From an uncultured Bacteroidia bacterium (GTDB taxonomy: Bacteria > Bacteroidota > Bacteroidia > JANWVE01), in NCBI GenBank assembly GCA_938028625.1, contig CALIZB010000087.1, positions 1 through 41,703 on the forward strand: a DNA stretch of 41,703 nt. The letters run 5' to 3'. This document shows, piece by piece, positions 27,260 through 32,230 of this stretch. The translations under genes and the position numbers were made by a program. Each line of letters opens with the position of its first letter. Positions within the stretch are counted from its first letter, which is position 1. The notes below the pieces were generated by a model. The model was not told where the DNA came from and did not search any database. It worked only from the letters and a program-made list of their open reading frames with translations.

Positions 27260-30200
27260 TTACTTAATAAACACAATTTTTCCGTATCCTTTGCGATTAA
27301 AATATTTGTCTTTATCTGATATAACTACCTTCATTTCTTTACCTTGATGTTTAGCTGTCATTTTATACAAATAAACTCCTGAACTTAATTTTGTTTGGCT
27401 AGCATCTGTGCCTTCCCATGCGTATTCAGAGATGTTTTCGCCATGTTTTACATTAGTAAAAAATATACGATTAACTTGTCTGCCCATCATGTCAAAAATA
27501 TCTACAAAAACTTCATCAGGAATAACTGAACCTTGAATAGTAAAACTAAATTGTGTTTTATCTGTAAAAGGATTAGGAAAAGCAAATATCTGCGTAATAC
27601 CACTTTCTTGTTTGAATACACCAAATATTACTGTTTTGCTTATTTTGTTTTGAGAGTAATCTCTGGCTTTTATTGAGAGTGTATAGTATCCGTCAGATAA
27701 CGAGTCATGAACGATTTGTATGCTTGCCGTATTCGCATTAGTAGTTGTTCCTGGGTTAAATAAAGCATACAAACTGTAAGTAGGATTAAAATAAACAGGT
27801 TTTTTATCTCCATTTGGGTATGTAAGCGTAATTTCTTCAAAATAGCTGGTATCTGCAAGATAAAAGCGGGTGGAGTTATCTTGTAAAGTAGCGAAAATTA
27901 TTACGTTAGGTGATACTTGTGTTTTGTCTGCAATTTGTACTCCGTCAAAAGTGATTTTCATTTCAGGAGGAGTATCATCTTTAATATAAATACGTTTTTT
28001 GAAAGTGTTATTATGGTAATACTGTTCTAATGGGTTTCTATTAGGATTAACTTCTATAACTACATCATACCAACCTTCTGTGTTACCGAGTAGTGTTGTA
28101 CTAAACGATAATAATAAACTATCTGATACCCCAAACATAGAGCGTATTTTTTCGGTTTTGAGCATGATTTTTTCATTAGAATACGCATTTTCTAAATAGT
28201 AATATACCCAAACACTGTCCACAGGATAAGGGGATACATTTCTTACATATATTTCCCCTTGTATATCAGATTTGTATCCTATCGTATCACTTAAATTAGA
28301 TTTCCAAGTAGCAGGGTCTAAAGTTAAATCTCCTACTCCTGTATAGAATACAAGGTTATGGCGTAATTGTGGTGCAGTATTAAATAAAGTGTCTTTGAAG
28401 TTAGCTACAAGGTCTAAATAGGGATAGGTATTAGCACTAATGGTACTTAAATCTGTATTTTGGTAAGTTCTTACTTTGGATTTAAGAAGAGTTCTTGTAC
28501 CGTCAGTTTTTACGCCATAGATGTTGTAGGTAATAGTATCGCCCATAGGGTCAATGCGGGTAGTATTTGTATTCCAATGTAAAGAACTCCAAGAACTTGC
28601 AGGGCCTATACGTTCATACTCGTATATTCCTTCATACCAGAAAGTATTGTATACTACACGTAAAAATGCGCTTTGTGCTGTCATAGGTGTGCCTAGGCTT
28701 GGGTCATAACCTTTTTCTATGGCACTACCAATAGAAGCGCCTTTTCTACCAAAAATAATAAAAGACTCATTATCATTAAAACTTCGGATACTACCTGAAC
28801 CTATATTTTCAAAGGCTTGATAGGTTTGTTCGTTAAAGGTAGAGAGTGTAATATTTGCTGTAGCAAATTTCCATGCAAATACAATATAACCGTCAGGAAT
28901 ACTGTTAATAAAAGCGGGTATTTTGTCTTTACCATTTTGATTAAAGCAATATGCAGGAGAGTTAAAGTAAAAACCACCGTTATCACCACAATCAAATCCG
29001 CCAAAGGGTGCTTCCCATGCTTTTAGGCTGGTAGGGTGCATCACAGCAATAAATAAACCTGTATATGCACCTATACAACAACAATTGACATCTAAACCTA
29101 CTGCACCATTTACACTATATCCTGTACTGGTATTTATGTCAATAGTAGCTGTATTTTGTGAGAAAGTCCATAATTTTTCTGTTGGGTTAATGTCTAAAAG
29201 ATATTTTTTACCATCATAATATTGTTGTAAATGCACCTGAGCAATACCACTCGGAGAACCTGAAATATAAGTAAAGTTAGAAACTGCCCAGTACTCCTGT
29301 GTAGAATTTGAATTCATTTTTACTCGCCAGTAATAGGCTGTACTATCACTTAAAGAAAAAGGCAAAACAACCTCCGCTTGATAATTTTTAGTAGGAACAT
29401 CAGAATAGGTTTTTAAGAAACCTGAATTAAAAGTGCTTACAGTGTCAATTTGGAAAGTAAAAGTAGTATTAGGTTGGGTGTGCATGTTTTCTGCTGAGGC
29501 TATTAACTTAACCGTTGGAGTACTAACAATTTGATATTTGACAGGATACATAGCAATAGCCTTATTTTTAGGTAAATAAAATGATTTACAAGCAGAGTTA
29601 TTAGTTTCATCTAGTTCAGTGATAAGATTTTGATAATCCAGAGCTATACAAATAGTGTTGTTTTCATACAATTGTATATTTTTGGTTTTAATCCATATTC
29701 TTAAAGTATCTTTGTTAAAAAGTTGCCCTGTATAGGCTTTTTGATGTACAATTTTAGTATTAACGGCAATACGATATTGTATACTATCTCTGTAAGCACG
29801 GGCATTATTACGTATCACAGCTTGTACCATAAAACTGTCTGCTTGTAATGAAGTATTTTTAGGTAATATAGTAATATCGCTGGATTGAATAGTAAAATCA
29901 GGTTTAGTGGGAAGTTCTAATTTTAGGCTTGGGTCGCCTTGTAAGCACACGTATCTTGCATGATTTCTGAAAGCAGGAACATACGGAGCAGGAACATTTG
30001 TATAGTTTTTGAGCGTATTTTGCACAGCATCACCAATAGGCACATTAGAAGTATCTCTAAATAATTTAGTGTAAAGGGTATCTACATAATTGTCTACTAC
30101 GCCTAACCATGTTGTAGCACTGCCCCCAAGATAAATAACAGCACCTTTTTCAGGAGTTTTTAAGAAATTTTCGCCTATACTGCTTCCTGCAAGAGAAAAA

Positions 30201-32230
30201 TCCCCTGTCTGACAACCATTAGAAATAATAAAAGGATAACGGTCTTTATTTTCATATTTAGTAACGTCATCTATGGCAACGTCCCAATTTTGAGTAGTAC
30301 CGTGTCCAAGGAAGTTAATTATACCAACACCATTGTTAATTTTGTTAAAAATTGTTGACATGATGTCTCCTACAATGGGTTTAGTAAAATCTTTTGTGTG
30401 TGTAAATACATCTCCGCCGTAAGGATACCCTTCAATTTCAGGTGCCATGATATTTTTGAGGATATGCGAAATGGTATCAATTTCCCATTTATTAGCTCCC
30501 CCACCGAGATGAAGAGCATTTTTAAGGTAAGGTTTTGCGCCTTGTTGTTCAAAGGCTTTTACTTTATCTAAATATGCAATTACTTCACTATTATTGATAG
30601 CAGTTAATCTACCTATGGTTAAACGGTCATTGGATAAAATTTGAGAATTATCAAAATTGCCGATAAATATGTTATCACTAGCGGGTGTTCCCCAAGTAGG
30701 AATAAGATTGTTATTAGAATTTCCTGTTAGAGCTACACATTTTCCGAGTAATAAGATATGTCTTCGTTTTTGAGAGGGTAAAGGATTCCATACGTTAGTT
30801 ATGTATTTACCCATACGTTTGAGAGCTAATGGTGTAAAATCCCCAAAGGCAAATTCATTCATGATATCTTCTATGTAATAGAGTTTTGCGTTGTATTTTG
30901 TACTTCGGTAGGCTAGATATTCATTAGCGCTGCTCGCAAGGCTTTTATGAGCAATGATAATAAAATCATAATTTGCACTAATACCTGCGGGGAGATTAGC
31001 AAAGTTAGCTAATTCAGGATTAGGGCAAGGTTTTATTTGACTTTGTACAGTAAAAAATCCTGTTTGATTTGAACCCCCATTGTTAAGAATAATTTTTGCA
31101 GTATCTGCGTCCATTATTCCTTCACAAACTACTTTATTGGTCATATCAAAAAAGTAGGCTTTTCCTGAACCTGTAATTCCATAGCGTTTGAAATAATTAT
31201 TTCCTGCACTACCTTTTACGGTGAGCATTTCTTGTGCAACTATATCATGCTCGTTAAGCAATTTAGGATAACTAATGGTATATTGATTAAAAGCAATGGT
31301 ACTGTTTGTACCTGTATGTTGTATAGAAAGTGTATTACTTAATGTAAGCCAAGATGCGGGAAATTTAACAGTGCGCGTATGTACAGTAAAACCTGTCCAA
31401 TTAAAAGAAATGATATTATTTCCGTTCCATTTAAGCAAAACAGTATGTCCTGCGGCGTTATTAGGACAGCCCCCATAACTGGGACTAGCAGAAGAACTAC
31501 CGCTTAATCCTGTAAATTTGAGTTCTAAAACTACGCTATCTGATGTAGATGTATTAGCTAATGGTGTATCTATGGTAAAATCTGCGGTATAAGGACTGCT
31601 AATAACTGTTCCTAATCTACCTTCACCATTAGTAAATTCAGGGTTATAGATTTCAGGCATACCAGGCCAAGTAGGATAACCCATAAAAGTTCCTGTATTC
31701 CAACAGCTTCTACCGTTATAATATCCCGTAGCTAGCTGTTCTGAAAATGTAGTTATACCTTGTATAAACAAGGGCGCGGTAAATGAAGTATTTTGATATA
31801 AAGTATAGCGTTGTGTAGAAGGTGTAGTGCTTGTAGTTAAAAAATAGCTTGCGGTATCACCACCAAAAAGGGAATGTTTAGTATTCGGTTGGTGAGTAGC
31901 GCTAGCATAGAGTTCTGCATCATCTAAACCGTCATGACCTTTGGCATAAAAGTATAAGGTATCTCCGCTGTCCCAAATAGAGTTACTATTGTTGTCTTTT
32001 ATCCATAAAATTCGTTCTGCACCTCTTCGGTATAAACGAATATTGGATATAGGTACACTACTTAAACCTACACTACTCGTCTGCGGAAAAGTTAGTGCAT
32101 AAATACCTTCCTGCGCAATACGTATTTTGTAATAGTTTTGGCTATAATCAATCCATGTGTTATTATAGGTTTGGCTATACAAAAATGAAGTAAATAAGCA
32201 AGTAATGAGAAGAAGTACAGATTTTTTCAT
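27260..32230 (-). CDS. Giant C25 (gingipain/PorU2-like) cysteine peptidase with ILEI-like domain and sorting tail
   Basis: The 1656-residue exported protein has a signal peptide (MKKSVLLLITCLFTSFLYSQ) and an N-terminal beta-rich region to about residue 400. A C25 peptidase domain follows with the dyad His643 (INFLGHGTTQNWD) and Cys673 (ISNGCQTGDFS), then GAVIYLGGSATTWLGVVDNY and FRNHARYVCLQGDPSLKL. After it come a CARDB-like domain (TKPDFTIQSSDITILP..., about 795-905) and a segment at about 1010-1175 that resembles the ILEI/FAM3 fold (IPDGYIVFAWKFATANITL, AFENIGSGSIRS, FIIFGRKGASIGSAIEKG). Further beta-sandwich domains and a C-terminal sorting/FlgD-like domain (FAFPNPFTDKTQFSF... SGVYLYKMTAKHQGKEM) complete it. 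PorU itself, the T9SS sortase, is shorter, so PorU2-like is the safer name. Confidence 0.9.
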   Translation of the reverse strand: MKKSVLLLITCLFTSFLYSQTYNNTWIDYSQNYYKIRIAQEGIYALTFPQTSSVGLSSVPISNIRLYRRGAERILWIKDNNSNSIWDSGDTLYFYAKGHDGLDDAELYASATHQPNTKHSLFGGDTASYFLTTSTTPSTQRYTLYQNTSFTAPLFIQGITTFSEQLATGYYNGRSCWNTGTFMGYPTWPGMPEIYNPEFTNGEGRLGTVISSPYTADFTIDTPLANTSTSDSVVLELKFTGLSGSSSASPSYGGCPNNAAGHTVLLKWNGNNIISFNWTGFTVHTRTVKFPASWLTLSNTLSIQHTGTNSTIAFNQYTISYPKLLNEHDIVAQEMLTVKGSAGNNYFKRYGITGSGKAYFFDMTNKVVCEGIMDADTAKIILNNGGSNQTGFFTVQSQIKPCPNPELANFANLPAGISANYDFIIIAHKSLASSANEYLAYRSTKYNAKLYYIEDIMNEFAFGDFTPLALKRMGKYITNVWNPLPSQKRRHILLLGKCVALTGNSNNNLIPTWGTPASDNIFIGNFDNSQILSNDRLTIGRLTAINNSEVIAYLDKVKAFEQQGAKPYLKNALHLGGGANKWEIDTISHILKNIMAPEIEGYPYGGDVFTHTKDFTKPIVGDIMSTIFNKINNGVGIINFLGHGTTQNWDVAIDDVTKYENKDRYPFIISNGCQTGDFSLAGSSIGENFLKTPEKGAVIYLGGSATTWLGVVDNYVDTLYTKLFRDTSNVPIGDAVQNTLKNYTNVPAPYVPAFRNHARYVCLQGDPSLKLELPTKPDFTIQSSDITILPKNTSLQADSFMVQAVIRNNARAYRDSIQYRIAVNTKIVHQKAYTGQLFNKDTLRIWIKTKNIQLYENNTICIALDYQNLITELDETNNSACKSFYLPKNKAIAMYPVKYQIVSTPTVKLIASAENMHTQPNTTFTFQIDTVSTFNSGFLKTYSDVPTKNYQAEVVLPFSLSDSTAYYWRVKMNSNSTQEYWAVSNFTYISGSPSGIAQVHLQQYYDGKKYLLDINPTEKLWTFSQNTATIDINTSTGYSVNGAVGLDVNCCCIGAYTGLFIAVMHPTSLKAWEAPFGGFDCGDNGGFYFNSPAYCFNQNGKDKIPAFINSIPDGYIVFAWKFATANITLSTFNEQTYQAFENIGSGSIRSFNDNESFIIFGRKGASIGSAIEKGYDPSLGTPMTAQSAFLRVVYNTFWYEGIYEYERIGPASSWSSLHWNTNTTRIDPMGDTITYNIYGVKTDGTRTLLKSKVRTYQNTDLSTISANTYPYLDLVANFKDTLFNTAPQLRHNLVFYTGVGDLTLDPATWKSNLSDTIGYKSDIQGEIYVRNVSPYPVDSVWVYYYLENAYSNEKIMLKTEKIRSMFGVSDSLLLSFSTTLLGNTEGWYDVVIEVNPNRNPLEQYYHNNTFKKRIYIKDDTPPEMKITFDGVQIADKTQVSPNVIIFATLQDNSTRFYLADTSYFEEITLTYPNGDKKPVYFNPTYSLYALFNPGTTTNANTASIQIVHDSLSDGYYTLSIKARDYSQNKISKTVIFGVFKQESGITQIFAFPNPFTDKTQFSFTIQGSVIPDEVFVDIFDMMGRQVNRIFFTNVKHGENISEYAWEGTDASQTKLSSGVYLYKMTAKHQGKEMKVVISDKDKYFNRKGYGKIVFIK

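Follow-up and report, generated by a model that had tools for sequence, protein, structure and literature searches.

An ILEI/FAM3-fold domain within a PorU2-type putative T9SS sortase of an uncultured Bacteroidia bacterium

The stretch of DNA analyzed here, referred to as the window, comprises 41,703 nucleotides (positions 1 to 41,703 of contig CALIZB010000087.1) from an uncultured Bacteroidia bacterium. Its minus strand carries, at 27260..32230, an intact open reading frame encoding a PorU2-type C25 cysteine peptidase of 1656 amino acids, a putative T9SS sortase. As a first-pass annotation made from the letters alone had hinted, the protein matches the NCBIfam model for PorU2 (NF052324), scoring 526.8 bits over residues 6-878 against a cut-off of 450; its score against the model for canonical PorU (NF033707), 226.7 bits, falls below the cut-off of 420. 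Both PorU2 and PorV2 (NF052325) are labelled 'putative' in NCBIfam. In length, catalytic domain and tail, the window protein resembles its PorU2 relatives. PorU2 proteins share with canonical PorU the C25 peptidase, the type A CTD and a PorV-type partner gene, whereas canonical PorU is shorter, at about 1300 amino acids.

The catalytic domain spans residues 423-771 (29918..30964, minus strand, as are all features below; Peptidase_C25, PF01364, 203.9 bits). Its predicted catalytic residues, His643 in a GHG motif (30302..30304) and Cys673 in an NGC motif (30212..30214), are kept in the aligned PorU2 proteins with coverage at these positions. A CARDB-like Ig domain follows at residues 776-879 (29594..29905; PF07705, 24.6 bits, cut-off 22.7), and beyond it lies an ILEI domain, outside the NF052324 model, which comprises only the N-terminal 879 positions. 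The Pfam match of the ILEI domain (PF15711) covers residues 1097-1165 (28736..28942), the domain itself extends over approximately residues 1018-1205, and the region modelled as a whole ILEI/FAM3 fold comprises residues 990-1215 (28586..29263). The protein ends with a T9SS type A sorting domain at residues 1551-1637 (TIGR04183, 33.9 bits, cut-off 23; PF18962, 32.7 bits, cut-off 27) and a conserved PorU2 end reaching residue 1656, which together occupy 27263..27580. Behind the Pfam sorting domain and a spacer, all 71 of 71 complete PorU2 open reading frames have an octapeptide ending of the GK[MIL] type (for example, FGKMYLMR; 27263-27319 in the window), and the C-terminal end of the window protein is similar to that of the PorU encoded in the same genome. 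The peptidase and the sorting tail had both been named in the first-pass annotation, and the profile matches bear this out.

The same annotation had placed the pattern of the ILEI/FAM3 fold at about residues 1010-1175, a good estimate of the domain core, and the three motifs it quoted are present at residues 1111-1122, 1142-1150 and 1159-1174. It had proposed a search with PF15711, a structure prediction and a survey of PorU2-type proteins as checks, and the absence of any significant profile or structural match as refutation. Matches of both kinds were found. PF15711 matches the whole protein with 30.0 bits (gathering cut-off 27; E = 7e-7) and the isolated domain with 33.6 bits. In the opposite direction, a profile built from 40 PorU2 domains, with no FAM3 sequence included, had as its sole significant matches among PDB sequences FAM3C (1.1e-6), FAM3B, FAM3A and POMGnT1 (9e-4). 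A second profile, made from the window and 75 loci of a different collection and having a few genomes in common with the first, retrieved the same families. The AlphaFold2 model of residues 990-1215 (pLDDT 82.2, pTM 0.79) yielded 19 Foldseek matches below 0.001 among solved structures, every one of them POMGnT1, FAM3A/B/C or TMEM2; the best reached 3.6e-7 (probability 1.00, TM-score 0.74 by target), and the match at rank 20 had an E-value of 0.47. Because the profiles in two directions and the structure model agree, we reject a chance match, and on the strength of these profiles and this model we regard as confirmed that the protein contains a genuine ILEI domain of the FAM3/POMGnT1 fold. The likeness lies in the fold and the profile match, whereas sequence identity to FAM3A/B/C and the POMGnT1 stem (ILEI, GG domain) is 11-18%, and the PorU2 domains differ in their conserved cysteine pair and their embedding in a protease. 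In a viral structure library, the best matches were phage tail proteins, receptor-binding proteins and T4-type gp35; these tail-fiber and adhesin domains, which include TP-778L CBM_1, share the fold but belong to another architecture.

The position of the ILEI domain between protease and sorting tail, which the annotation had noted in this gene, is indeed as described, but it is characteristic of PorU2 at large. Among 60 sampled genomes of relatives, 49 encode a PorU2 over the cut-off, and every ILEI match with E < 0.01 lies inside an open frame of PorU2 size or, in one case, a frame cut by the end of its contig. Pfam detects the domain (E <= 0.01) in 73 of 76 PorU2 domains from public genomes. 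The loci were collected with a longer alignment that may favor those covering ILEI, so that the less biased counts are those from the 60 genomes and from an even sample of 148 genomes across the phylum, which was searched separately with the ILEI profile and with the PorU2 N-terminal family. In the latter sample, a single profile found ILEI in 37 of 42 PorU2-type genes, lying 328-658 bases (approximately 110-220 codons) downstream of the conserved N-terminal part; one of the remaining five (L151) has ILEI by Pfam. The survey thus found the same domain in nearly all PorU2-type proteins examined. Only 4 of the 41 ILEI sites in the 148 genomes lie outside PorU2-type genes, and three of these are C25 proteins with ILEI. 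The single real exception is L149:3949-5748 (+), where ILEI (78.6 bits) is fused to phosphatidylserine decarboxylase in a protein of 600 amino acids. A recent insertion of ILEI into the window gene is rejected, given that the domain is family-wide and at the same position. Two PorU2 frames, G168:C3:277109-279757 and G052:C1:289491-291842, contain in-frame stops that perhaps reflect decay or assembly errors.

The simplest account of such a constant part would be that of a mere spacer that sets the distance between catalytic and sorting domains, and the placement of ILEI within a row of Ig-like domains, together with the strongly variable loop lengths among aligned PorU2, is compatible with this. 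We nevertheless consider it quite unlikely. A specific fold is kept across the phylum, with few if any replacements among the genes analyzed. Its KG, G and G-P-W positions are near-invariant: of 111 class domains, 98% have Lys-Gly and 99% have the Gly-Pro..Trp that closely follows it. Compared with L038, a congeneric relative with 84% identity over 1060 codons, and with dS saturated at approximately 1.9, dN is 0.073 in ILEI, 0.046 in the catalytic domain, 0.125 and 0.158 in other neighbors and 0.100 in the CTD, so that ILEI evolves slower than its neighbors other than the catalytic domain. Judged from these sequences, the ILEI domain is under strong purifying selection. Two cysteines, present in 79% and 85% of the class domains, may form a disulphide.

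The FAM3 relationship brings in a defined sugar pocket. POMGnT1 binds beta-linked GlcNAc via Arg129, Asp179 and Arg207, which are also conserved among FAM3 proteins, and FAM3C likewise binds GlcNAc (PMC9802357). Arg129 and Asp179 are kept in the streptococcal phage lectin domain TP-778L CBM_1 (PMC9437275). In both profile and joint alignments, the corresponding positions of the window protein are T1057 (29060..29062), A1123 (28862..28864) and N1154 (28769..28771); the profile alignment was made with FAM3C, in which R80, D129 and R157 are spaced nearly as the three POMGnT1 residues. The R-D-R triad is thus T-A-N in the window protein. In the profile alignment, the full triad occurs in none of 111 PorU2 domains from the window's class: 102 lack all three residues, eight have the acidic residue only and one the first Arg only, and a joint MAFFT alignment gave identical numbers. 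Among 27 PorU2-like proteins of other classes, all three residues occur in nine and two or more in 21; the Asp is present in 20. These are counts of related sequences rather than independent events, and a Fisher test on them, which takes no account of relatedness, is only descriptive. The phosphatidylserine decarboxylase fusion at L149 carries the full R-D-R triad. Since the triad is found in other classes and absent from that of the window, the most economical interpretation is that the PorU2 family had the pocket ancestrally and that the window's class lost it.

The first-pass annotation had suggested a carbohydrate-recognition role in T9SS processing or anchoring. Because the triad is absent as a set from the window protein and its class relatives, sugar binding in the FAM3/POMGnT1 mode is not supported here; it appears plausible for those PorU2-like proteins of other classes in which the residues are retained. 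The absence of the known triad may still leave room for binding through another surface, and the suggestion would survive in the form of an active lectin that recognizes the T9SS glycan acceptor through other residues. In favor of this possibility, the best structural matches of the window domain are sugar-complex structures of the POMGnT1 stem, FAM3C and POMGnT1 bind GlcNAc (PMC9802357), other PorU2 classes retain the pocket residues, and in the canonical system a carbohydrate-binding protein, PorZ, brings A-LPS to PorU (PMC8545088). Conversely, the triad is missing throughout the class, a Fam3L1 domain of Caenorhabditis elegans that lacks two of the three residues did not bind GlcNAc (PMC9802357), and PorZ is already encoded in the window genome, as it is in 55 of the 60 sampled genomes. 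On balance, we regard an active lectin here as possible but doubtful. PorZ would be a functional analog for sugar delivery to the sortase, but it is a beta-propeller protein from a separate gene. ILEI as a substitute for a missing PorZ is rejected for the window genome, where PorZ was found.

The gene neighborhood bears on the function of the enzyme itself. No PorV2 homolog was found in the entire window; the neighbors of the gene encode a flippase-like protein, a small CarboxypepD_reg-type protein, an uncharacterized secreted-looking protein, a small AAA-type protein, a glycosyltransferase and a MacB-type permease. Its relatives differ in this respect, most of them having PorV2 directly upstream of PorU2 (90 of 106 loci with enough flank, a few of which represent the same genome twice), and PorV2 over the cut-off is present in 52 of the 60 genomes. 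The same genome encodes, on another contig, a second PorU2 with ILEI (L003:6736-12919, minus strand), directly behind a PorV2 (NF052325, 468 bits, cut-off 325). The two copies are only approximately 31% identical over the first 1000 residues, and the second copy therefore appears to be an old or fast-diverged duplicate; in the tree, they are joined by long branches that leave their exact placement uncertain. The pairing of the two families is not strict: three genomes (G006, G021 and G023) have PorV2 without PorU2 over the cut-off, and one (G016) has PorU2 without PorV2. A fourth C25 peptidase of the window genome (G000:C51:13221-14216, 1126 amino acids) is neither PorU nor PorU2 by score.

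The part of the annotation that assigned the protein to T9SS processing is supported only by the C25 domain, the sorting tail and the PorV2 neighbors of its relatives; the window copy itself has no PorV2 gene beside it. That absence would fit a secreted peptidase of the usual gingipain type, rather than a sortase, that ILEI targets to an external substrate; secreted gingipains also belong to the C25 family. We consider this very unlikely, given that the N-terminal region fits the PorU2 model over 870 residues, that PorV2 is linked to the PorU2 family and that the C-terminal end resembles that of this genome's PorU.

In the canonical system, PorV carries cargo to the attachment complex, which consists of PorU, PorV, PorZ and PorQ (PMC5562754), and in Porphyromonas gingivalis, PorU cleaves off the CTD and links the cargo to A-LPS presented by PorZ (PMC8545088). 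By analogy, a PorU-like enzyme with a PorV paralog, a sorting domain and catalytic residues would most likely perform the same reaction on another set of cargo. The type A sorting domain of the window PorU2 would direct its export to the external surface of the outer membrane. In most family members, PorU2 would be paired with a dedicated PorV-type barrel, PorV2, remove the sorting domain from some of the cargo and hand this cargo over to an acceptor. ILEI would be a fixed accessory module of this enzyme that originally kept the acceptor, or a surface polysaccharide, close to the active site. With the pocket gone and the fold kept in the window's class, it would now most likely dock a partner (PorV2, the cargo or another protein of the attachment complex) or bind a different ligand. 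Our favored reading for the window's class is that ILEI once bound glycans and now serves as a docking or scaffold module in a second T9SS sortase, and our confidence in it is evenly divided. It is preferred over a lectin acting through another surface because the known pocket is gone in the window protein. Two observations count against it: the window copy has no PorV2 neighbor, so that the partnership with PorV2 derives from relatives, and PorZ is also encoded, which leaves no visible need for a second sugar carrier. Sugar presentation by ILEI in classes with an intact triad is a fair guess. The more sweeping proposal, that PorU2 has a built-in FAM3-type lectin presenting the sugar acceptor to its active site as an internal counterpart of PorZ, with a pocket still intact in several classes but lost or remodeled in that of the window, strikes us as unlikely.

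Our literature search found no paper in which PorU2 or PorV2 appears as a T9SS term, none that reports an experiment on PorU2, and none that joins ILEI/FAM3-like domains with T9SS; in the searched genomes, frames of canonical PorU showed no match to ILEI. The PorU2-ILEI architecture is recorded automatically through its Pfam and NCBIfam parts but apparently undescribed in the literature. A FAM3-type domain as a constant part of PorU2 ties a putative bacterial anchoring enzyme to an animal family for which sugar binding has recently been shown. The natural split between PorU2 with and without the pocket offers a direct test of the domain's function and, if the built-in lectin proposal were true, a single family of sortases would display both states of the pocket.
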